Assembly (NCBI GenBank): GCA_030646295.1
Contig: JAUSND010000016.1
Span: 1 to 64,000, forward strand
DNA length: 64,000 nt
From: Moraxellaceae bacterium
GTDB lineage: Bacteria > Pseudomonadota > Gammaproteobacteria > Pseudomonadales > Moraxellaceae
Direction: 5' to 3'
Positions within the stretch are counted from its first letter, which is position 1. Each line of letters starts with the position of its first letter. The position numbers and the translations under genes were made by a program. The notes under the pieces are model-generated. The model ran no database searches. It was not told the origin of the DNA and worked only from the letters and a program-made list of their open reading frames with translations. This document shows positions 1,596-13,654 of this stretch, piece after piece.

Positions 1596-2687
1596 CTACC
1601 AGGTTTTCCATTCGGGTATGGGTAAAAAAGATTTGGGCCCAGATTCAAGTGTTATAACCTCAGGAGGTTCGGTTGGCTGCGCGTATGCCCCATAAAGGGC
1701 TAGTGTCTCCCGAAGGCTGTTGATCATCTGATTGCGTAGCGACTCGGGCTTCAGCACCTCTACCTCCTGTCCCTGTGATTGAATCCACCAGTGCAACTGC
1801 CAGGTATCCGGAACATTGGCACTGACCAGAAAACGTTCTCCGTCCTCGGTGATGGTCATGTCCTCTGCCAGCGGGGATTCGGTCAGGGTGGTCTTCAGTG
1901 ACTCGCTGATACGCAGTGTCAGGGAGATGATGTTGCCGCTGCCAAAGTTCAGGGCGCCTCTGGCAATAAAGTCATCTATGTCAAAGCCTGCGGGAGAGAC
2001 GATGTCATCGTCAGTTTCCATTGCAGCTTCAAAGCGATGCATGGCGTACAGACGAACGTCTTCGTAATCAAATGCCTTGGCGACGAGATAGCTAAGGGGG
2101 CCACGCAAAACAAGCGCCAGCGGATGCAGCGTGAAGTCGTTGGCCGGCTTGCCGTTGCGGCCCTGGTAGCGTGCCACAATCTGCCGTTCGTTGATCAATG
2201 CACTCTGCACCACTGACAGTACAGCCGGCTTGATGGCCGGGGCCTGAAGCGGTTGACCGGGCGTCACCGTCCGGATCTTGTCCGTCCACCTGGTGAGGGG
2301 ATTGTTCACGGACTCCAGACGCTTTTGAGCCAGATTGAAGCGGCCACGAAGGGAATCCAGAATCGCCGTAGGTAATAGCGGAGTCAGGTAGTGTTCCATC
2401 ATCTTGATGCTCAGCGCATCCGATATGGAGAGGTTCGCAATATCCAGCGAAGCCTTCTCTATCCAGAACCAGCCGGAACCGGCACCGTCGTTGTCACAGC
2501 TGATCGGGAAATTGACCGACAGTTTCTGCAGGTCGCGCTGCACCGTGCGTTGGGTAACGGGGTAGCCCAGTGATTCCAGACGCGATACCAGCTCGGCCGA
2601 GGTAATGCGACAGGCGCCTTGCGGGATCAGTCGCAGCATTTCCCACTGCCGCAGCAGGGTGTCGCTACTGTCGTTCTTTCCACTCAT
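1596..2687 (-). CDS. WYL-domain transcriptional regulator
   Basis: This is a 363-aa protein from the ATG at 2687, preceded by AAGGGA; the track start at 2726 lacks a ribosome site. An N-terminal winged helix-turn-helix (about residues 10-65, containing TQRTVQRDLQKL) is followed by a WYL domain around residues 170-230, where the motif reads SYL in place of WYL. A C-terminal extension (WCX-like) completes it. WYL regulators of this build (BrxR, CapW) control phage-defence loci and are thought to sense nucleic-acid ligands. Two palindromes in the adjacent divergent intergenic region are its probable operators. Its job here is inferred from context. Confidence 0.85.
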   Translation of the reverse strand: MSGKNDSSDTLLRQWEMLRLIPQGACRITSAELVSRLESLGYPVTQRTVQRDLQKLSVNFPISCDNDGAGSGWFWIEKASLDIANLSISDALSIKMMEHYLTPLLPTAILDSLRGRFNLAQKRLESVNNPLTRWTDKIRTVTPGQPLQAPAIKPAVLSVVQSALINERQIVARYQGRNGKPANDFTLHPLALVLRGPLSYLVAKAFDYEDVRLYAMHRFEAAMETDDDIVSPAGFDIDDFIARGALNFGSGNIISLTLRISESLKTTLTESPLAEDMTITEDGERFLVSANVPDTWQLHWWIQSQGQEVEVLKPESLRNQMINSLRETLALYGAYAQPTEPPEVITLESGPKSFLPIPEWKTW

Positions 2688-2881
2688 GCCAAAGTCCCTT
2701 GAGGATGGTTTCGTTAACCTCCACACGCAGCATCCGTGTGGAGTTGGTGCGGCATTTCACCGTCGGCTCAGACCGGGTAGCCGGTTGACGGAGGGGGGGT
2801 ATTCCCGAAATCCGCCATCCAGCCTGTCCTGAATGGTGTTCCATGCTGATCGTATCGGCATGCGACAGAGTTAGCCTGAGT

Positions 2882-2904
2882 TTGGCGACAACTTGTGTCG
2901 CCAA
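2882..2904. promoter_or_regulatory. Palindrome 1, probable WYL-regulator operator
   Basis: TTGGCGACA-N5-TGTCGCCAA is a perfect 9-bp inverted repeat with a 5-bp spacer. It shares the core GGCGACA-N5-TGTCGCC with palindrome 2, whose centre is 74 bp away (about seven helical turns). It lies in the divergent region between the WYL gene and the rightward 77-aa/Nudix unit. Confidence 0.75.
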
Positions 2905-2955
2905 GGGGGCGGATGGTAATGCAGGGGGAGGGGTTATTCGGGATGCTTGGCCTTG

Positions 2956-2978
2956 CAGGCGACATATACTGTCGCCTG
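2956..2978. promoter_or_regulatory. Palindrome 2, probable WYL-regulator operator over a -10-like box
   Basis: CAGGCGACA-N5-TGTCGCCTG is a second perfect 9-bp inverted repeat with the same core and spacer length as palindrome 1. Its centre creates TATACT (2965-2970), which could be the -10 of the rightward promoter, although no good -35 lies 17 bp upstream. If so, binding would block transcription of the 77-aa and Nudix genes. Confidence 0.75.
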
Positions 2979-3062
2979 GATGTACTACGGTTCAGTCACG
3001 ACGATGACGTCACCGGTGATGCGAGGCACAGTCGATTGGCCAAAAGAAGAAAGGAGCCCGTC

Positions 3063-3296
3063 ATGCTACTGGGCCTGAAGGTGGAGATTGGGCGCACTGA
3101 CAAGAAAGGCCGTCTGGTGGCGGACATTCATTGGCGCGGATTTCGTATTGCCAAGGTATTCATCAAGGAGGGAGTGCCTGTGGCACGCGTTTACTGCAGT
3201 AAACGCCAGGGCGCGGAGGCCATCCCTCTGGATTCCATGAAGTCAGCCATTGGCCTTGCCGAGAGCCGGTTAAAGGGTTTTACGCAGCTCCGCTAG
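3063..3296 (+). CDS. Small protein of unknown function (77 aa) upstream of the Nudix gene
   Basis: The start at 3063 is chosen because AAAGGAG lies seven bases upstream; the longer track ORF from 2895 would run through both palindromes. The product is basic, begins MLLGLKVEIGRTDKKGR and contains a beta-rich pattern (DIHWRGFRIAKVFI) followed by a helix. I do not recognise the family. It is the first gene after the operator palindromes and ends 47 bp before the Nudix gene on the same strand, so the two are probably co-transcribed and jointly controlled by the WYL regulator. Confidence 0.65.
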   Translation: MLLGLKVEIGRTDKKGRLVADIHWRGFRIAKVFIKEGVPVARVYCSKRQGAEAIPLDSMKSAIGLAESRLKGFTQLR

Positions 3297-3343: not shown

Positions 3344-4684
3344 ATGTGGTCCATTCCCAAGGCATCCGCCTACGGCGGCATTTTGCTCACCCGGGGCGGG
3401 CGCATTCTGTTGCGTGAGCCCGCGAACCATTACGACGGTTACGTGTGGACGTATGCCAAGGGGCGCCCCGATCCGGGCGAAACGCCTGAACAGGGGGGCT
3501 TGCGCGAAGTGCGCGAGGAGACGGGCTATGAGGCTGAAGTCGTCGATGTCTTGCCCGGGGTGTTCAAGGGCGGGACTACGACTAACGCCTTCTTTGTGAT
3601 GCGGCATATTGGCCCGCCGGGCCGATTTGATGAGCGGGAAACGGCCTCCGTTCGATGGGTGGATTTCCGTCAGGCCGAGGCATTGATAGGGCGGACGACT
3701 AACGTGATTGGTCGCGCCCGTGACCTCGCGATCCTGGTGGCGGCCAAGGCATGGTTTGAGGCCAATCAGACGGTGGTGCTACCCGACGACGAGTCATTGC
3801 CATTCCCGGCTCGATCGTACGACTGGAAAGCTGAGCCTCTGCCGCCCCGCCATGTCGTCCTACGGCTGGATTTTGTGCTGTCGAAGGCCGAGGCGGAGCG
3901 CATTCGCTGGGGCTTCATCCCGGAGGCTATGGAGGACAAGTGGTTCTCTTACTTAGAGGGCAATACGCTCTTCCAACACCGGAGCTGGACCGGCCACTGC
4001 ATCGACCGGATTCACTTCATCCCCGAGGGTGAAGGTCTGCGGGCCACTCATGCCGAGGTCAACCGTGACCCGGAGCAGTATCAGGGCATAGACGACCAGG
4101 AGGACATCCGCAGGATCGAAAGCATGGTGCGCGACCTGGTGCAGGTGCCGGAGTCGCCTGAGGCGTCCACCTCTCTGATAGAGGCGATTGAGCTGGCCAG
4201 TCAACCCAACTATCTGGGCAGCCCCGAAACGGTTGCGGCCTTGATCCAGGAGTTCTTCACGGCCCATGAGCCTGGCCCATCGGGCTTGCCTGTCTGGTCC
4301 GCCAAGCAGGCAGCCAATCAGCGGCTCACTCGCATCATGTGCGAGGACGGTATGGGGTATACGCGTATGCCGGGCTGGCACACCGAAACCGCACTTGGGC
4401 AGAATCTGATCACGGCCTTCAACCTGGACCCGGGCTACTGTGCAGGCGAGGACCTGACCTTCCTCGTCAGTGAGGCGCTTGCCGCGTTGAGCATGGCCGT
4501 TGGTGCCGCCGTCAAGGCAATAGGGGAGGCAGTTGCTGAGTCGGAGAATCCCGAGGACCACGAGGAGGCTGAAGAGGCGCTGCAAGCGCTGTTCAACTTT
4601 GCCGTATGGAGCTTTCTGGGGACGCAGATGGTCATGGCGCCGGAGAAGTCGCTGAAGGACCTTCTGTCGCGTCACTGGGCCTGA
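3344..4684 (+). CDS. Nudix hydrolase domain fused to two unassigned C-terminal regions
   Basis: A 446-aa protein from the ATG at 3344 (CAGGAG eight bases upstream). Residues about 8-130 form a Nudix domain with an exact Nudix box, G-x5-E-x7-REVREETG (from GRPDPGE); such domains hydrolyse nucleoside diphosphates linked to another moiety. A middle region (about 165-270) carries KWFSYLE and HRSWTG, a conserved-looking domain I cannot name with confidence. The last 150 residues include a Gly/Ala-rich helical stretch, an acidic run (ESENPEDHEEAEEA) and a hydrophobic end. The length far exceeds a stand-alone Nudix enzyme. The WYL-controlled context beside Gabija suggests a defence or stress role acting on a nucleotide signal or ADP-ribose-type substrate; this is inference. 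Confidence 0.8.
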   Translation: MWSIPKASAYGGILLTRGGRILLREPANHYDGYVWTYAKGRPDPGETPEQGGLREVREETGYEAEVVDVLPGVFKGGTTTNAFFVMRHIGPPGRFDERETASVRWVDFRQAEALIGRTTNVIGRARDLAILVAAKAWFEANQTVVLPDDESLPFPARSYDWKAEPLPPRHVVLRLDFVLSKAEAERIRWGFIPEAMEDKWFSYLEGNTLFQHRSWTGHCIDRIHFIPEGEGLRATHAEVNRDPEQYQGIDDQEDIRRIESMVRDLVQVPESPEASTSLIEAIELASQPNYLGSPETVAALIQEFFTAHEPGPSGLPVWSAKQAANQRLTRIMCEDGMGYTRMPGWHTETALGQNLITAFNLDPGYCAGEDLTFLVSEALAALSMAVGAAVKAIGEAVAESENPEDHEEAEEALQALFNFAVWSFLGTQMVMAPEKSLKDLLSRHWA

Positions 4685-5175
4685 TCGTATCTGATCGTGG
4701 GGCCGGCGGTGGTGGGGTAGTTCCCGCAATAGTCTTGCGATGGGAGTATGCCTCCATGGTCGCCATACCTTGGAATGCTGTCCTATTCGTCGTAAGTCTC
4801 AGGGTAATCTTGCTGATTTAGATAAGAATGGTTTGTGCTGGAAAACATTTAAGATTCAATGGGTTGTGTTAGGCTCAATAGGTCTGGAGAGTGGGGCCGT
4901 ATGTTTAAGAGTCTCGGGATATAACAAAGGACTAGGTTCTTGAAGCAACAGCTAACCACATAGGACTTCAATTCGAAGGGCTGGCGTAGACACATCACGG
5001 ATTTGGCGAGCTGAGAAATATGGGGATGTGGAAATATTATCCTCTTAAGATGTTTGGATAGGGGTTGCAGAGCGGTCTATTTAACTGCGGGCTCAAGAGA
5101 GAGGGTTCGTGAGCTTATAAAAGAGAAGAAAATTGGCGCTTATTGCGTTAAGCCCACTTGGAGAGGCTGCCTGGA
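4685..5175. other. Non-coding, AT-rich leader region upstream of Gabija
   Basis: About 490 bp with no convincing gene; the track ORFs here lack ribosome sites and family features. Composition is more AT-rich than the flanking genes. A TATAAA box at 5116-5121 could be a -10 for gajA, but no clear -35 precedes it. A small RNA cannot be excluded by eye. Confidence 0.4.
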
Positions 5176-7032
5176 ATGGCTGAGGCGAACAGCGGTATAA
5201 AAATAACGGATGTCCGTGTTTCAAACTTCAGGGCCCTCAAGAATGTTGAGGTTCCTCTGGGGGATTTGACGATCCTTCTCGGGGCTAATAATGCGGGTAA
5301 GACAAGTTTTCTCGACGCTCTTTATGCCGCGATTGGGGCTGGTCGGAAACTTCTTGGCCAAGATGACGTGCGTTTGGAGGAGGCCGAGGCTCTTCCGCCA
5401 AAGGAGCGTACTGTAACGGTGGATGTCCGAATTAGGCCGCTCGATGATGATGGGGAAATCGCCTCTGCATTTCCAGGGGGAAGTTTCTGGACGAATCTTT
5501 GGGGGACTGGCATCAAGCAGGAAATGGACGGCGAGTTTGACGAGTTTGTAGGCGTTCGAACAACCCTCATGTGGAGTCCTTCGAAAGGGGACTATGTCGT
5601 CGAGCGTCGCTTTCTAAAGGAGTGGAGGGCGTTCGAAAACTGGCTCACATCCCCAGTGGACGAGACGTCTAGAGTGAATGCAGCTCAGATTGAGCCGTTA
5701 GCTCTTCACTATATTGACGCCAAACGAGATCTGGATGAAGACATACGCAGGCAGGGGTCTTTTTGGCGTCGAATGACGGAGGATCTCGGGCTTTCGGATG
5801 CAGAAGTACAGTCATTTGAAAAGGCGCTCTCTGACCTGAACCAGGAGCTCGTTGGCAAGAGCGGCATCCTCAAGCACCTAAAGGAGAACTTGGCGGACAT
5901 CCGTCCAGTATTGTCAGCAGGTGGGGGTGAAATCGACATCTCCCCGGTCGCCCGTAAATTGCGTGACCTTTCGAAAGGCGTGGACGTTTCCTTCATTGCG
6001 GCGGGCTCCCAGGCGTTTCCGCTAGCGCGGCACGGTATGGGAACACGCAGTTTGGCTTCCCTGTTGGTGTTCAGGGCTTTCGCGTCATGGAAAGGAAAGC
6101 AGGCGGAAGACGCCGGCGATCACGTTCACTCCATTCTTGCTCTCGAGGAACCGGAGGCTCACCTGCATCCCCAGGCCCAGAGATCTTTCTTCTCCCAAGT
6201 GAAGTCAATCCCCGGGCAGCGCGTCGTGAGTACCCATTCCCCATACTTCGCCGGCCAGGCAGGCTTGTCAGATTTACGTCTCTTCATTCGCACTGGGGGC
6301 GAGACGACTGTCTCGCGGCTGGATCTTTCAGCGCTGAGCGCAGATGAAATTAGGAAGCTTCGCCACGGAGTCGTGAACACGAGAGGGGATTTGCTATTTG
6401 CTCGCGCTGTGGTTTTCTTCGAGGGTGAGACAGAAGAGCAGGCTCTCCCGATACTCGCTGAAGCTTACTGGGGGTGCAGCATCAGTGAGCTTGGTTTTAG
6501 CTTCGTCCGTGTTGGAAGCAATACGAACTACTTCCCATTCATTTGGCTTGCGGAATGTCTCGATATTCCCTGGTATGTATTCTCTGACGGTGAGCCTAGA
6601 ACAATCACACATTTGGATGCTGCCCTCAAAAAATCGGGCGTGCCAGGATCGGATGCATGCTCGAATGTATTCGTAATTCCAGGCGGTAGAAATTTTGAGA
6701 CACAGTTGGTAGAGGAGGGCTATCTTCCTGAAATTGAGTCTGCATTCAATCAGCTAGATGGGCGGTCTGACTTTCTCGACGACTACATTAATCGCATGAA
6801 TGGAAAGGATGGGAAGGGTGGAACAAAACGTGATTATACGGCTACCGATAGTCGTCAGAAGGCCGCTTGCGACGCAATGTCAGAGAAAAAGACACGCATG
6901 GCTGAGCCGATTGCATTGAAACTTTGTGACATCACAGACGAAGAAAGAAGGTTTCCACCTTATATAAGAGTGCTGTTCGACAAGATGTCCGCTGATCATG
7001 GGCTAGTGCAGATTGGCAAGGAGAAGAAATGA
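5176..7032 (+). CDS. gajA: Gabija anti-phage protein GajA (OLD-family ATPase-TOPRIM nuclease)
   Basis: A 618-aa protein from the ATG at 5176, with GGAGAGG nine bases upstream; the track begins six codons earlier at a TTG. An ABC-type ATPase domain has Walker A GANNAGKTS (residues 36-44) and the signature/Walker B region LEEPEAHLHP near 325. A TOPRIM nuclease domain follows, with the acidic motif FFEGETEEQ near 415 and SDGEP near 469. This is the OLD/GajA layout. GajA nicks or cuts DNA when nucleotide levels fall and forms a complex with GajB. The stop overlaps the gajB start (ATGA), so the pair is translationally coupled. Length is close to known GajA proteins. Confidence 0.92.
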   Translation: MAEANSGIKITDVRVSNFRALKNVEVPLGDLTILLGANNAGKTSFLDALYAAIGAGRKLLGQDDVRLEEAEALPPKERTVTVDVRIRPLDDDGEIASAFPGGSFWTNLWGTGIKQEMDGEFDEFVGVRTTLMWSPSKGDYVVERRFLKEWRAFENWLTSPVDETSRVNAAQIEPLALHYIDAKRDLDEDIRRQGSFWRRMTEDLGLSDAEVQSFEKALSDLNQELVGKSGILKHLKENLADIRPVLSAGGGEIDISPVARKLRDLSKGVDVSFIAAGSQAFPLARHGMGTRSLASLLVFRAFASWKGKQAEDAGDHVHSILALEEPEAHLHPQAQRSFFSQVKSIPGQRVVSTHSPYFAGQAGLSDLRLFIRTGGETTVSRLDLSALSADEIRKLRHGVVNTRGDLLFARAVVFFEGETEEQALPILAEAYWGCSISELGFSFVRVGSNTNYFPFIWLAECLDIPWYVFSDGEPRTITHLDAALKKSGVPGSDACSNVFVIPGGRNFETQLVEEGYLPEIESAFNQLDGRSDFLDDYINRMNGKDGKGGTKRDYTATDSRQKAACDAMSEKKTRMAEPIALKLCDITDEERRFPPYIRVLFDKMSADHGLVQIGKEKK

Positions 7033-8876
7033 TTAAGGCCAGGCTTTCACCAACCCAATCACGAGTAGTAGGGCACGAGGAGGGTGCTCTTCTTGTGGTG
7101 GCTGGTCCGGGATCGGGCAAGACGCGAGTCCTTACGGAGCGCGTACGGAAGCTTCTGGCAGAGGTGCCAGGACACTTCAGGATACTTGCCCTTACCTTTA
7201 CCAACAAAGCTGCCAATGAGATGAGGGAGCGACTTGCTGATCTGGGCAACGAGAGCCAACGGGCCTTCATCGGGACGATGCACAGTTTCTGCCTGGAAAT
7301 GCTTTCGGAGCGCGGCAAACCTGTCGGTGTTGAAGGGCTGCCCCACGTGTTTGAGCAGCACAAGGACAGGAAGGAGATACTCATTGAGGCAGTCAAGCAG
7401 GATCCGCTATTGTCGGAAGAGCTGGCATCCGAGCCTGACTCAAAGGCCGTCGCCAAGCGGCTCGATCAATGGCTAGCCTCTATCTCTTGGTTAAAGGCTC
7501 ATCCGTCCGAGATTGAGAGCTCTGAGGATGAAATTGGCATAAGGGCGCTGGAGGCTTACGACGCTGGTCTCCGAGCGTGCGGAGCCTATGACTTCGATGA
7601 CCTTCTCCTTCTTTCTTATCGGCTACTGAGTGAATATCCGAAGATTGCTGACTTTTACAGGCGGCTCTATCGCTTCGTTTGCATCGACGAAGCGCAGGAT
7701 CTCAACGAGGCTCAGTATTCTGTTTTGACCGCGCTTTGCGGAGACTCTTTTCGTAACGTAATGATGGTGGGTGATCCCAAGCAGTCGATATACGGCTTCA
7801 ACACCTCTAGCCCCGAATACATGTGGCGATTTCAGGAGGAGTTTGGTGCCGAAAAGGTCGAGTTGACTGAGAACTTCCGTTCATCTAGGGCGGTGGTGAG
7901 TCTGGCCAAGGCGTTGGATCCGAATTATATCGTTGAGGGGCAGTTGCCGATAACGGGGTTGGTCGAGGTGCTTCCGGGGGGAGACGAAGAGTCGGAAGCA
8001 AAACTGGTCGCTGACAAAATTCAGATGCTGATCGCCAGTGGGCATCCGGATGTCGAAGGGCCAGTTACTTGGGAGAGATGTGCGGTACTTGGACGCACTC
8101 GCTTCGCCTTGATGGCTGTTGAGGCTGAATTTAGGAGGCGTGAGATGCCTTTCTATAAGCGGTTGACAGCTAATCATGAGAATGAGTCTGACGTGATGGA
8201 GGACTTCGTTTTGTCGCTGCGCGTGATGGCCAATCCCAAGGATAGGCTGCACCTTTCTGCACTAGCGAAGCGATGGAAAATGACTGCGCCGTTGGTTTCC
8301 GGTGAGGCTACGGCCGTCAATGTCATTGGTTCACTTGCACTTTCTGTGGGAACTCCCAGAGCTCGTGCCGTGTCGGATGCATTGGCTGCTATTGAGGCTC
8401 GGGCGCAACGTCTGGATATGCTTTGCGGCCTTACTGCTATTAGAGCCTACGCTGACACCCTTGATGAGGAAGAAAAAAGGGCAGTTTACGAAGACGTTGC
8501 GGTATTTGCACAGGAGTGGGATCAGTATCTTCGAGCAGGGGGGGGCAGCAGGAGTATTGGCGGTTTCATGAGCAGTAAGGCACTTGGTGCAACACAGCAG
8601 GCGGCGCGAGCTGGAGTGGCCTTGCTAACGGTACATTCCTCAAAAGGCCTGGAGTTCGACGTTGTGTTCGTCGTCGGCATGGCCGATGGCGTTTTTCCCG
8701 ACTACCGAGCGAAAACAAGGAAGGAGCAGGATGAGGAGGCTAGAAATGCTTTTGTAGCTGTCACGCGCTCGAAGCGTCTCCTGTATCTCACCTGGCCAAC
8801 AACAAGGCTGATGCCGTGGGGGGATCGAAGGAGCCAAAATCCATCGAGATTTCTCTCGGCTGCAAGGAATAAATAG
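7029..8876 (+). CDS. gajB: Gabija anti-phage protein GajB (UvrD-like helicase)
   Basis: A 615-aa superfamily 1A helicase. The motifs seen in order are motif I GPGSGKT (about 26), Ia TFTNKAANEM, II CIDEAQD (about 218), III GDPKQSIYGF, IV LTENFRSS, V TVHSSKGLEFD (about 535) and VI VAVTRSKRLLY. It starts inside the gajA stop codon. In Gabija systems GajB senses DNA termini and activates GajA. It is somewhat longer than the roughly 500-aa reference GajB. An eight-G run (8538-8545) within the coding sequence could be prone to slippage. A 46-aa ORF starts four bases after its stop. Confidence 0.92.
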   Translation: MIKARLSPTQSRVVGHEEGALLVVAGPGSGKTRVLTERVRKLLAEVPGHFRILALTFTNKAANEMRERLADLGNESQRAFIGTMHSFCLEMLSERGKPVGVEGLPHVFEQHKDRKEILIEAVKQDPLLSEELASEPDSKAVAKRLDQWLASISWLKAHPSEIESSEDEIGIRALEAYDAGLRACGAYDFDDLLLLSYRLLSEYPKIADFYRRLYRFVCIDEAQDLNEAQYSVLTALCGDSFRNVMMVGDPKQSIYGFNTSSPEYMWRFQEEFGAEKVELTENFRSSRAVVSLAKALDPNYIVEGQLPITGLVEVLPGGDEESEAKLVADKIQMLIASGHPDVEGPVTWERCAVLGRTRFALMAVEAEFRRREMPFYKRLTANHENESDVMEDFVLSLRVMANPKDRLHLSALAKRWKMTAPLVSGEATAVNVIGSLALSVGTPRARAVSDALAAIEARAQRLDMLCGLTAIRAYADTLDEEEKRAVYEDVAVFAQEWDQYLRAGGGSRSIGGFMSSKALGATQQAARAGVALLTVHSSKGLEFDVVFVVGMADGVFPDYRAKTRKEQDEEARNAFVAVTRSKRLLYLTWPTTRLMPWGDRRSQNPSRFLSAARNK

Positions 8877-9042: not shown

Positions 9043-10911
9043 ATGGAAATTGAAACCGCAACAGCTGTTCAATTTTTCTTTCCAAGTCCATCTTTGCCGA
9101 TGGTCTACTTTGAGGCTATAGCCAATTCGCTTGATGCCCATGCCACTGAGATCGACATAAAGATCTCAATTGCTGCGTTCGGTGCTGCTAAGACGCTTGA
9201 AGTTATGATCTCTGATAATGGAGATGGTTTTACTGATGAAAACTTCAGTCGATTCTCGTTTCTGATGCGGTCGCGCGATGAGCAGCATAAAGGATTGGGG
9301 CGGCTAGTATATTTGAAGTACTTTGATCGTATTCAGGTTGATAGTGAATGGGTTGGCGGGCGCCGAAACTTTATCTTTGATTCCAGGTTTAAGGGTGATT
9401 CAAATCTGGCTGCTGATGCTTATCAGGGTGATAGAAGAACGACTCTTGCTTTTGGCGGCTTCAAGAACGAGAAGGTCAAATCTTACGATGACCTTAATCC
9501 GACCGCAATCAAGGCAAGAATAATTGAGCACTTCTTCCCGCGTCTAAATGAGGTGGTTGATAAAGGAGGAAGCTTTGTTATCAGGGTTGAGCTTGAAACA
9601 TCGGCCGACAACATGGAAAAGGACTTCTTTTCAAAGACTGAAGTAATTGGTCCAGAGGATCTGCCGAGAATGACTTGGGAGGAAATACAGGATCATGGAC
9701 TAGATGCCATATCAAGCATAAAAATGGGATTCCACGTTCAGTCAACGGGCGCAAAGGGCGGAATTCTTACGGCGGTGAGTGTTGATGGAAGAACCATTCC
9801 GATCGACTTGGTGAAACCATCAGCCATTCCCTTCGGCTATTCGGTTATCGTATTGGTGTCTTCTGACTTTCTTGCAGGAAGCGCCGATAGTTCGCGACAG
9901 AATTTGATCGTTCCAGAGCATATCCCCGAGCAGCAGTTCTTTGGTTTCGTTAGAAGAAAAGTGGGGGAGTATCTCTCTCGCGAAATTCCGAAGATTAAGG
10001 ACGATAATCGCAAGATAAAAGAAAAATTCGAAGAGAAATTTCCTCACTTGCTTGGTTTGTTTGAAGAAGAAACGGTCGGGCTGATTGATCGGGATGATGC
10101 GCTTAATGTCGCTCAAGCTAGATTTTTCAAGGTGCAGAAGGAAGTTTTACAATGCGAGCATTTGAGCGACAGAGCATATGAGAAGTCTCTAGAGCTGTCG
10201 TCTCGTACTCTTACGGAGTACATTCTTTACCGTGAGAAGATAATCGACAAAATGAAGGAATTCACGGCGGATAACCTGGAGTCGGAAATTCACAAGCTGA
10301 TTTCGCCGAGGTACGAGAAATTTTCGCAAGAGGAGTTGGTTGGTGGCGTTTACAGAAACAACGCTTGGCTTCTTGATGATAAATTCATGTCATTTCAAAC
10401 GATTCTCAGTGAGAGTCGGATGGATTCCATAATTTCAGAAATAACACTCGATGAGTCCCCAATAGTTGATGACGGTCGTCCGGATATCACAATGATATTC
10501 TCTGGAGATCCTGGCGCTTCTGCATCAGTAGATGTGGTGGTTGTTGAGCTAAAGAAGAAGACAGACGCAGAAAAGGAAAATCAGTACGCGATCAGCCAAC
10601 TATTGAAGCGGGCAAGGCGGCTCGTGGCTCACTGCCCGAATATTGGCAGGATTTGGTACTTCGCCGTGGTGGATGTTGATGACGAGTTTGATGCGTCGCT
10701 TAAGCAGCAGAAGTTTTTTCCGCTGTACTCCGCAGGTAAGGTTTACTACCAGGAGTACGCAACTGAAGGACCGAGAGGTATGGTGCCAACGCCAGTTTAT
10801 GTCCTCTCTTACGATGCGATTGTTGAGGACGCACGTAGCCGAAACCACACATTCCTGGAGATTTTGCGCGATGGCATGCGCAGATATGCTGCCGCCAAGG
10901 TGTTGAACTGA
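9043..10911 (+). CDS. GHKL-type ATPase fused to a PD-(D/E)XK-like nuclease domain
   Basis: A 622-aa protein with GGAG seven bases before the ATG. The N-terminal third is a GHKL (Hsp90/MutL/MORC-like) ATP-binding domain: N-box EAIANSLDAHATEIDI (24-39), G1 box SDNGDGF (58-64) and a glycine motif KGLGRL near 85. A charged helical middle (about 310-440) may be coiled. The C-terminus has PDITMIF (about 480) and VVELKKK (about 503), the D...ExK spacing of PD-(D/E)XK nucleases. It follows gajAB and a small ORF on the same strand, so it looks like a third effector of the same defence operon or a second system behind it. It is not a canonical Gabija component. Confidence 0.8.
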   Translation: MEIETATAVQFFFPSPSLPMVYFEAIANSLDAHATEIDIKISIAAFGAAKTLEVMISDNGDGFTDENFSRFSFLMRSRDEQHKGLGRLVYLKYFDRIQVDSEWVGGRRNFIFDSRFKGDSNLAADAYQGDRRTTLAFGGFKNEKVKSYDDLNPTAIKARIIEHFFPRLNEVVDKGGSFVIRVELETSADNMEKDFFSKTEVIGPEDLPRMTWEEIQDHGLDAISSIKMGFHVQSTGAKGGILTAVSVDGRTIPIDLVKPSAIPFGYSVIVLVSSDFLAGSADSSRQNLIVPEHIPEQQFFGFVRRKVGEYLSREIPKIKDDNRKIKEKFEEKFPHLLGLFEEETVGLIDRDDALNVAQARFFKVQKEVLQCEHLSDRAYEKSLELSSRTLTEYILYREKIIDKMKEFTADNLESEIHKLISPRYEKFSQEELVGGVYRNNAWLLDDKFMSFQTILSESRMDSIISEITLDESPIVDDGRPDITMIFSGDPGASASVDVVVVELKKKTDAEKENQYAISQLLKRARRLVAHCPNIGRIWYFAVVDVDDEFDASLKQQKFFPLYSAGKVYYQEYATEGPRGMVPTPVYVLSYDAIVEDARSRNHTFLEILRDGMRRYAAAKVLN

Positions 10912-10933: not shown

Positions 10934-10957
10934 AAAAAAAGAGGCTCAAATGAGCCC
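10934..10957 (-). terminator. Rho-independent terminator at the end of radC
   Basis: GGCT-CAAATG-AGCC hairpin followed on the minus strand by a run of seven T. It overlaps the radC stop codon and lies 22 bp from the end of the convergent GHKL gene, so it may also slow transcripts from that side. Confidence 0.65.
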
Positions 10958-11464
10958 CTTTTCCACCATCGACACCGTAGCGGTGCCGGTGGCGATAAAG
11001 TGATCCGTTACACGGATCTCCAGTAGTCCTAAAGCCTCCCTCACCCGCTGTGTAATCTGAATGTCCGCCTGGCTAGGCTCCAGCGTCCCGGAGGGATGAT
11101 TGTGAGCAAGGATCACCGAGGCGGCGTTGTGGCCAAGTGCTGCCTTCACGATCTCCCGGGGGTACACCACGGTAGACGTTAGGGTTCCCCGGAACATTTC
11201 TTCATAAGCAATCAGTCGGTTCTGGCTGTCCAGGAACAACACCCCGAAGCGCTCGTGGTTGTAGCTCCCCAGTAGGGCCGGTAGACACTCCCTAACTTCG
11301 CTAGGCGAGTTCAAAGGGGTGCCCCGCGCCAACCGTCTGGTCGCCAGTTCCCGGGCCGCCTCAAGTAGTTGTTCCGCCGTCACAGGCTTAAAGCCACCGA
11401 GTCCATCCGCCACCAGGAAGCCGGTCGCTTCGAGCTCCTTCGTCAGGATCTTCTTTCTGCTCAT
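10946..11464 (-). CDS. radC: RadC-like JAB-domain protein
   Basis: A 172-aa protein of the RadC/JAB (MPN) family. The JAMM-type metal site is visible as HNHPSGTLEPSQAD with a later DHFIATG. The N-terminal helix-hairpin-helix of chromosomal RadC is absent, which is the usual form on plasmids and integrative elements. The role is uncertain; these proteins are linked to DNA repair or anti-restriction cargo. Its start overlaps the stop of the preceding gene (ATGA), placing it last in the leftward operon. Confidence 0.88.
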   Translation of the reverse strand: MSRKKILTKELEATGFLVADGLGGFKPVTAEQLLEAARELATRRLARGTPLNSPSEVRECLPALLGSYNHERFGVLFLDSQNRLIAYEEMFRGTLTSTVVYPREIVKAALGHNAASVILAHNHPSGTLEPSQADIQITQRVREALGLLEIRVTDHFIATGTATVSMVEKGLI

Positions 11465-12372
11465 GCGGCACCCGCGACAGGCGCTGCCTGCCCATTTGCC
11501 TTCTGCCCCAGCTTTCCCCTTAACCCGGCAGGTGGCGTAGCAGTAGTTTCTTCCTCAGAATCGGTTCCCGCATCCTCCGCAAAGAACTCCTCCACCAGGG
11601 CAGGTGTGTCCTCGACAGATTCCTCGCTGATGCCGTTCCCGAAACCCTCTCGGGCTGCCGCATCCAGTGCGTCCTGGCAGATGCCGGCCTGCTGATGTTG
11701 CGCCTCTTGCTCCTTTGCTTGAACAACGGCGTCCGCCAGTGTCATCCCGTCGCGCAAGGTCAGGTCGACGTAGTAGATTGGTGCTCGATGGCTCTGGGTC
11801 GTGCTCTTGCCTCGCAGGCGAAGCTCCAGCGGCAAATACGCGAGCCGATTGCCAGAGACCGCGCTGAAATAGCTCAGGCGGGCGGCCAGTACACGGATGC
11901 TGTTGAAGCCAGTGGTGCGGAAGATGAACGAGCCCAGCTCGTCGTCTCCCGGAAGCTTCACGTTGAGACGACCGAAGGGCTTACATGCCCCACGTCCGAC
12001 TTCGCAAACATCCGGGGACGGGCAGGGCAGTGTTTCCACACTGCCGTTCTGGGTGCGACGACAGGTTTCTCCATCGCCCACACAGAGCTGGCGACCCTTG
12101 CTGCGATCAAACAGCGTGTAGGCCGCGCGCAGGTTCAGGTCAGGATCATTGAACAGCATGCGCACGGGAATGCTGCGCAGCTTGCCGTTGGGGGCATCCT
12201 TGCGAAGTTGCTCATCCAGCGGATGTAGCAGCCAGCCGTCCTTGTTTTGCAGCTGAGTTGTAATGGTGAACTGGTCGTCTTTCTCCGGCAGGCGTTTGCC
12301 GGCCTTCTCGACAACCTTGCCGATGCTGATACGCCCGAGAATGGGTGGGGTAATGGCGAGCCCTTTAATCAT
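11461..12372 (-). CDS. Cys-rich metal-binding protein of plasmid/ICE recombination modules (Gp3-like)
   Basis: A 303-aa protein from the ATG at 12372, which has GGAGA upstream; the track start seven codons earlier has none. It opens MIKGLAITPPILGRISIGK and has a cysteine cluster (CVGDGETC, then CPSPDVC and GAC) that probably holds a metal ion, followed by SFIFRTTGFNSIR and LPLELRLRGKSTT. From memory this matches proteins annotated as hydrolase or metal-binding protein, some assigned to the Gp3-like family that includes phage recombination-directionality factors. The C-terminal 70 residues are low-complexity and acidic. It sits between a small ORF and radC, with overlaps on both sides. Confidence 0.7.
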   Translation of the reverse strand: MIKGLAITPPILGRISIGKVVEKAGKRLPEKDDQFTITTQLQNKDGWLLHPLDEQLRKDAPNGKLRSIPVRMLFNDPDLNLRAAYTLFDRSKGRQLCVGDGETCRRTQNGSVETLPCPSPDVCEVGRGACKPFGRLNVKLPGDDELGSFIFRTTGFNSIRVLAARLSYFSAVSGNRLAYLPLELRLRGKSTTQSHRAPIYYVDLTLRDGMTLADAVVQAKEQEAQHQQAGICQDALDAAAREGFGNGISEESVEDTPALVEEFFAEDAGTDSEEETTATPPAGLRGKLGQKANGQAAPVAGAA

Positions 12373-12574
12373 GGCGATGTGTCTCCGTGGCATTGTGCTG
12401 AATGATCTGGTCGGCGGTATGCCGGGCGGTCTGGCCCGACTGCCAGGCCTTGGTCACGAGCAGGCGCTGCGCATCCAGGATGCCCAGGGCATCGCTGCGG
12501 CAGACCTCCAGTTCGTGTTCGAGGAGGGAGGTGATTTCTTCCTCCCATTTCAGGAATTGCAGAAGTGGTTGCAT
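12365..12574 (-). CDS. Small acidic protein of the recombination operon (69 aa)
   Basis: The ATG at 12574 is preceded by AAGGA at six bases, so it is preferred to the track start at 12649. The product MQPLLQFLKWEEEIT... is helical and ends in a His-rich tail. It overlaps the next gene by 8 bp, which indicates coupling. I do not recognise a family. Confidence 0.65.
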   Translation of the reverse strand: MQPLLQFLKWEEEITSLLEHELEVCRSDALGILDAQRLLVTKAWQSGQTARHTADQIIQHNATETHRHD

Positions 12575-12632
12575 GGGGTGTCCTTGAAGTGCGTGAGCCC
12601 CGGTCGACCGGTAAGGGTCGCCAGGGTGAGGG

Positions 12633-13625
12633 TCAGGTCGAGATGACAAAGCGGCGGACGCCGGGACGGATCAGGGGGTAGGCGTCGATCAGCTCCGGCC
12701 GCTCGCGAGCGAGCAGCCCCAGATCCACGGACCGGACATCCTTGGTCCGTTTCCAAGTAATCTCGCCATCCAGAAAGCAGGCCCGGCTGGCATCGCCCAT
12801 CCGCTGCTGCAGGGTCTGTTTCAGCAGGGCTTCCTGCTTCTCCTTCTCTGCAAGCTCGCTACGCAGGGCGACTAGGCGGGTAAAGGCCTCGGTCATGGCC
12901 GGATCTTCACTTAGGTCAATCGAGACGCCGAGATCCCGGGGGTAGAGGGCCTGTAGAGCCTGTGCTGCCGAGTCCGAACCATCCGCCGGGGGCGGGGTGT
13001 CGGTCTCGACGTAATGCCAGAAGCGTCGCTCCAGCTCGATCAGGTGGGCAATCAGCTCGTCGTCGCGCTCGATGCGGTGGATGCGGGCTTCCTGCCCGCC
13101 GAGCACCACGCATACATCTGCCGCCTGCCGACCGGTCACAGCCAACTGGTGCTGTACCTGCACCTGCACATACTCAGGCACGCCATCCTTCCAGAGGCGT
13201 GTTCCAAAGCCACCGGAGGTTTTGCATTCCAGAATCTGCACGTCGGGGGCGCCGACGATCTCCCGGTCAATGTTGGCCAGCATCCAGGGGTATTCCGGAT
13301 GCTGCAGCACTGCGTTCACTTTCCGGACGCGGTGGCCGGTGTGGCGCGTGTAGTACTCGGCCACGAACGGCTCCAGCAGCGTGCCCCAGTAGGTGGGGTG
13401 GCTGTCGTCGGTCGGGTCGATCTTGGGAAGGTCGGCGTCCCGCCCGGTTTTGATGAGCCAGAGCTCCAGCATGGACTGGTAGGGGTTGAGGCCGACAGCG
13501 GCGGCGGCATCGCTGCTGCCAATGCCGTTCTTGCGGACGCGTAACCAGTCCTCGCGACCCATGCCCTTGGTGGACACGAGACGCAGCGGCTGGCGGGAGG
13601 GTGAGGGTTTGGGGGATGCACCCAT
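12633..13625 (-). CDS. YqaJ-type (lambda exonuclease-like) viral recombinase nuclease
   Basis: A 330-aa protein from the ATG at 13625 (AGGAG eight bases upstream). The N-terminal half is a YqaJ domain with the PD-(D/E)XK core: KNGIGSSDAAAAVGLNPY, then LEPFVAEYY, NIDREI, and APDVQILECKTS. It should digest one strand of linear double-stranded DNA to give 3' overhangs for single-strand annealing. The C-terminal half (about 225-300) is helical, including a likely coiled coil (ELAEKEKQEALLKQTLQQR). No RecT/Beta annealase is seen beside it. It belongs to the radC block of a mobile element. Confidence 0.88.
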   Translation of the reverse strand: MGASPKPSPSRQPLRLVSTKGMGREDWLRVRKNGIGSSDAAAAVGLNPYQSMLELWLIKTGRDADLPKIDPTDDSHPTYWGTLLEPFVAEYYTRHTGHRVRKVNAVLQHPEYPWMLANIDREIVGAPDVQILECKTSGGFGTRLWKDGVPEYVQVQVQHQLAVTGRQAADVCVVLGGQEARIHRIERDDELIAHLIELERRFWHYVETDTPPPADGSDSAAQALQALYPRDLGVSIDLSEDPAMTEAFTRLVALRSELAEKEKQEALLKQTLQQRMGDASRACFLDGEITWKRTKDVRSVDLGLLARERPELIDAYPLIRPGVRRFVIST

Positions 13626-13654
13626 GGTGGTTTCTCCTGAAGGCAAAAAACAAA

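Follow-up and report, generated by a model that had tools for sequence, protein, structure and literature searches.

In the defence island of a Moraxellaceae bacterium, we have identified two palindromes which, judged by sequence comparison, almost certainly serve as operators for the neighbouring wHTH-WYL-WCX protein. The reading that fits best gives each of two divergent promoters, on the WYL side and on the Nudix side, an operator of its own. From the anatomy of these promoters we infer activation as the better-supported sign of control, about twice as probable as repression, since the operator core, its spacer and the -35/-10 geometry match those of DriD, which is also the nearest solved relative of the protein. 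Little is settled about what turns phage-defence islands on, and BrxR and CapW, the WYL regulators linked to them to date, are repressors; the sign of control predicted here is the opposite. For another WYL group, the present analysis provides a well-defined operator (TGCGACA-N5-TGTCGCA), a constant promoter geometry and a set of candidate target genes, and the operator motif can be used for finding new defence genes.

Two palindromes in a divergent intergenic region

Inside the window, the whole stretch of 64,000 nucleotides that was analysed, predicted operator 1 (2882..2904, no strand) lies on the WYL side and reads TTGGCGACA-ACTTG-TGTCGCCAA, and predicted operator 2 (2956..2978, no strand) lies on the Nudix side and reads CAGGCGACA-TATAC-TGTCGCCTG; the core of both is kept beside homologues. 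As the earlier note had described, they are perfect 9-bp inverted repeats with a shared core and a 5-bp spacer, their centres at 2893 and 2967 being 74 bp apart. Its placing of them in a divergent region was also correct, the WYL gene starting at 2687 on the minus strand and opposing a 77-aa ORF (3063) and the Nudix gene (3344) on the plus strand. Chance as their origin is ruled out by three counts: shuffling the 376-bp intergenic region 20,000 times gave one such repeat in 31 cases and two in none; the 3.14-Mb genome contains no copies of GGCGACAN5TGTCGCC other than the two in this intergenic region; and the core is enriched at homologue loci, as given below.

The letters TATACT are indeed present at 2965-2970, spanning the spacer and the right arm of operator 2, but the promoter box that had been seen in them is probably not one, because the conserved -10 sits 19 bp from the operator centre. 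As a -10 this candidate was rejected, most other spacers of the family having no such box and no -35 fitting it. Between 2600 and 3400, no pair of hexamers making up a sigma-70 promoter was found.

Conservation of the operator beside WYL homologues

The assignment of the palindromes to the adjacent WYL regulator is supported by their conservation beside homologous WYL genes, the point at which the earlier note had exposed the idea to refutation and at which it survived. Across 781 kb of sequence from 66 neighbourhoods, each around a WYL homologue (31-82% identity), the core CGACA-N5-TGTCG was found in 40 copies at 30 loci, the exact core being absent from the other 36. It was the most enriched of all 1024 5+5 palindromes in these 66 loci (the runner-up reached 9 loci), and the enrichment was confined to a spacer of 5, the same core giving 0-4 copies at each of the spacers 0-4 and 6-15. 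Moreover, in an independent set of 12 plasmid loci, obtained later by a separate search, the core was present in 6, again ranked first of the 1024 and, among spacers 0-7, occurred only at 5. Pooling the sites gave the consensus TGCGACA-N5-TGTCGCA. A search for relatives in viral contigs found none, and a literature search for the motif plus WYL returned DriD alone among the relevant papers.

Binding of the palindromes by some other regulator, such as LexA in the SOS response, or a role as RNA hairpins, in either case unrelated to the WYL protein, is very improbable. SOS-related genes do lie near some relatives, and binding by the WYL protein is a prediction; yet the enrichment came from a search anchored solely on the WYL gene and extends over many genera, and the core is also that of the DriD site, DriD being a WYL protein. 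Known LexA boxes differ from the palindromes, and RNA hairpins would leave the fixed position of the -10 unexplained.

The closest relative of the window WYL protein (82% identical, locus L003) has two sites as well, one of them with a single core mismatch, between a Nudix gene and an operon ending in the WYL gene. The distance between sites is not conserved, being 74 bp in the window, 84 bp in this relative and 98 bp at a further locus (L007), and many relatives have a single site. Helical phasing or looping was rejected on these grounds as the reason for having two sites. Thus the same-face dimers or DNA loop proposed before are not needed, though they may still occur, as each site can serve its own promoter.

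Operator-to-promoter geometry

The sites of the family stand at a fixed distance from a -10-like hexamer. An xAxxxT hexamer (A2, T6) starting at +19 from the operator centre was found in 29 of 85 orientations, the maximum at any offset in 5000 flank rotations being 17, and at 39 of 49 sites an xAxxxT stands at +18/+19 on one side or both, where the background gave 7.8 on average and 15 at most. In these operator promoters the -35 consensus is matched at no more than 3/6 positions, because the operator occupies the -35 position, and start codons bunch at +49 to +62 bp from the operator centre. All this points to promoters that need a bound regulator, as those of DriD and PafBC do.

In the window, the predicted -10 of the Nudix-side promoter, TACGGT (2986..2991, plus strand), begins 19 bp beyond the midpoint of operator 2, and the closest relative has CACGCT at the same offset. 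On the WYL side, the conserved GGCTAACT (2869..2876, minus strand), is presumed to be a weak -10 region, its distance to the operator 1 centre being about 18-20 bp; it forms an identical block in the closest relative within an otherwise diverged region, and it is atypical, misfitting the A2/T6 rule.

This asymmetry bears on a form of dual control, in which the protein would activate the targets with an operator at their -35 site in the manner of DriD and, from operator 1, repress its own promoter. The +19 rule holds on the Nudix side and fails for the WYL-side -10, and 206 bp separate operator 1 from the start of the WYL gene, both of which would suit such an arrangement; we nevertheless consider it improbable, as in several relatives, L005, L140 and L148 among them, the activator-like geometry is seen at the WYL gene itself.

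Somewhat more weight, though still on the unlikely side, is given to a BrxR/CapW-type repressor, a WYL dimer that would keep RNA polymerase off both promoters and be released by a ligand from the phage. Every defence-linked WYL regulator tested represses, TATACT within operator 2 recalls the CapW sites that overlap -10 boxes, CapW has been solved with ssDNA bound (9c5g), and a homodimer on a palindrome fits repressor and activator alike. Against this, there would be little for a repressor to block, because the operator promoters have no usable -35 (at most 3/6) and no sigma-70 promoter was found in the intergenic region of the window. In addition, the spacing from operator to -10 is strict, fold and sequence are closer to DriD and PafBC, the BrxR operator is unlike that of the window and BLASTP to BrxR was negative. 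The promoter anatomy as a whole argues against BrxR/CapW-style repression relieved on infection.

The WYL protein and its putative ligand

The WYL regulator (1596..2687, minus strand, 363 aa) is composed of a wHTH, a three-helix bundle, a WYL domain and a WCX domain (Pfam WYL 3e-13, WCX 2e-13). In an AlphaFold2 model of medium quality (pTM 0.47), helices at 88-137 lie between the wHTH and the WYL domain, and the top fold match of this medium-confidence model was DriD (8tp8, E 1e-15 over 342 columns). In sequence comparisons by phmmer and by profile, DriD or its WYL-WCX part ranked first as well. By sequence and fold together, the nearest solved relatives are DriD, then PafBC, then CapW and BrxR.

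Since DriD, PafBC and CapW bind ssDNA, ssDNA is a plausible ligand of the WYL domain by analogy, and another nucleic acid is possible. PafBC requires two WYL arginines for ssDNA, R201 and R204 of PafC (PMC11804915). In the alignment, PafC R204 corresponds to R218 of the window protein and PafC R201 to alanine 215, the motif of the WYL family being mostly xALHR.

The defence island and a possible scattered regulon

The first gene on the Nudix side is the 77-aa ORF (3063..3296, plus strand), which has a Shine-Dalgarno AAAGGAG and no family. It is followed by a Nudix hydrolase (3344..4684, plus strand, Pfam NUDIX 9e-15) which is extended at its C-terminus by about 300 aa of unassigned family and whose N-terminal 268 aa are 60% identical to the gene downstream of the operators in the closest relative. 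There, SspF (E 1e-250) comes after the Nudix gene, in the place that Gabija takes in the window. The claim of a defence locus was borne out by GajA, the Gabija ATPase/TOPRIM nuclease (5176..7032, plus strand, PADLOC GajA 1e-225), and GajB, the Gabija UvrD-like helicase (7029..8876, plus strand, PADLOC GajB 3e-234), which as adjacent gajA and gajB genes with these domains belong to Gabija.

A dedicated operator ahead of GajA was rejected, the 491-bp gap from Nudix to GajA (4685-5175) holding no site with 3 or fewer mismatches. Because of this, control of Gabija by the operators is only a candidate effect. The gap contains a weak promoter-like match only, at 5011-5040, which together with its length points to Gabija as a unit inserted on its own.

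Other features of the neighbourhood are worth recording. After GajB lies a GHKL-type ATPase (9043-10911), AT-rich at 45-47% GC, which close to its C-terminus has what may be a PD-(D/E)xK motif (D..VELKKK) and which could be an unlisted defence gene. Mobile-element genes stand beside the island, namely a RadC-like JAB protein and a Gp3-like recombination directionality factor at 10946-13646 of the window, and an IS21 IstB gene is found at the left edge of the window. Among relatives that have a name, a Moraxellaceae MAG is the nearest.

A third operator with a perfect core is located on another contig of the same genome (C13:657707-657725; locus L151, about 2008-2026). It has CATCCT at +19 and, at +54, an ATG with a Shine-Dalgarno that opens a tandem-AAA ATPase gene, and an IS21 end adjoins it. 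This ATPase is a probable distant target of the window WYL protein. A tandem-AAA ATPase also follows the operator at L105, L112 and L143, and probably at L127, and in the annotated plasmid loci an ATP-binding protein follows the operator near Sir2, DUF2779 or BREX-2 genes. The tandem-AAA ATPase is labelled only as an ATP-binding protein in the plasmid records. The pairing of the WYL family with an operator-preceded tandem-AAA ATPase of about 700 aa is recurrent (L105, L112, L143, L151, L158, L160, L164).

A further site with the core in the same genome, AGCGACA-ATTCG-TGTCGCC with TACTCT at +19, was observed near the far end of its contig (C8:578627; locus L153, 2037), neighboured by XRE-like and possible antitoxin genes. 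Additional cores on contigs C6 and C26 were rejected, being intragenic and devoid of promoter geometry.

Proposed mode of control

We propose that a WYL dimer would bind both palindromes, operator 1 serving the WYL promoter and operator 2 the promoter of the 77-aa ORF and Nudix gene. At each promoter the operator centre would take the place of the -35 element, with the -10 starting about 19 bp away and no usable -35 hexamer. The inducer, ssDNA or another nucleic acid arising from phage attack or DNA damage, would bind the WYL domain, and the inducer-bound dimer would then bind or re-orient on the operator and recruit RNA polymerase. The output would be more WYL protein and increased expression of the Nudix unit and of the remote tandem-AAA ATPase. 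Taken as a whole, this model of an operator-bound dimer activating two divergent -35-less promoters on a nucleic-acid signal is moderately probable; within it, the sites, their conservation and their fixed distance to the -10 are observed, and we infer that the WYL protein binds them, that it activates, what induces it, and a possible influence on Gabija. Against it stand the misfit of the WYL-side -10, the alanine at the residue equivalent to R201, the medium quality of the structure model, the 36 of 66 loci that have no exact core, and the repressor role of the characterised defence-linked WYL regulators. An operator placed over the -35 might equally keep RNA polymerase out, and Acinetobacter BrxR represses in this way (PMC9122589).

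Perhaps a large and undescribed class of defence-island WYL regulators acts as DriD-type activators of -35-less promoters with TGCGACA-N5-TGTCGCA, governing one scattered regulon of Nudix, tandem-AAA ATPase, Sir2, nucleases and the WYL gene itself upon a nucleic-acid signal of infection or DNA damage; to this wider reading we give slightly less than an even chance.

Comparison with known WYL regulators

The characterised defence-linked WYL regulators, BrxR and CapW, are repressors (PMC9122601, PMC9122588). BrxR of pEFER and Acinetobacter resembles the window protein in its wHTH-WYL-WCX architecture, in its 5-bp-spaced inverted repeats and in its defence-island setting; it differs in being a repressor. 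The BrxR family was defined by Picton et al. as proteins with a BLASTP E < 1e-5 to pEFER BrxR, and in a single BLASTP comparison with that protein the best E of the window protein was 2.4, which places it outside the family. In an operator comparison that covered pEFER BrxR only, the half-sites of R-BOX1, CCTACTG-N5-CAGTAGG, were not present in the window, which has GGCGACA-N5-TGTCGCC. CapW, of CBASS systems, likewise binds as a WYL homodimer to a palindromic site in a defence promoter; however, its site overlaps the -10, it represses, and its profile and fold similarity to the window protein is weaker. Nor does the window have the CapW setting, as the neighbours are Nudix and Gabija rather than CBASS and the conserved -10 lies outside the operator. 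The BrxR/CapW kind to which the locus had been assigned is not supported, given the BLASTP result, the different half-sites and the activator DriD as the nearest solved relative.

PafBC, which acts in mycobacteria at RecA-NDp promoters, shares WYL-WCX similarity, and its TGTC half-site stands at about the same distance from TAnnnT as in the window family. It activates without a normal -35, by sigma adaptation. PafBC is a heterodimer on a non-palindromic site, whereas the window has a palindrome and presumably a homodimer.

DriD of Caulobacter is an ssDNA-binding WYL activator with the consensus ATACGAC(N7)GTCGTAT, and its probe ATACGACAGTAACTGTCGTAT can be written ATACGACA-GTAAC-TGTCGTAT (PMC12340889). 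Its sites overlie a poor -35 and keep one and the same distance to the -10, and the didA and driD promoters as printed have xAxxxT at +19. The core CGACA-N5-TGTCG with its 5-bp spacer is identical in the DriD probe and in the window, the degenerate -35 under the operator and the fixed -10 distance recur in 39 of 49 family sites, and the order of wHTH, three-helix bundle, WYL and WCX is the same, DriD being the best full-length fold match of a medium-confidence model. Differences lie in the flanks (TA/TA in DriD, TG/CA in the WYL family and GG/CC in the window), in one arginine of the WYL ssDNA pair, which is alanine in the window family, in an identity of about 20% to the window protein, and in function, as DriD runs a DNA-damage regulon (didA, driD and bapE promoters) and not a defence island. 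Because the anatomical features of DriD-like regulators are found in it, the window protein is named here a DriD-like WYL regulator of a defence island, for which activation is predicted and ssDNA binding is plausible.
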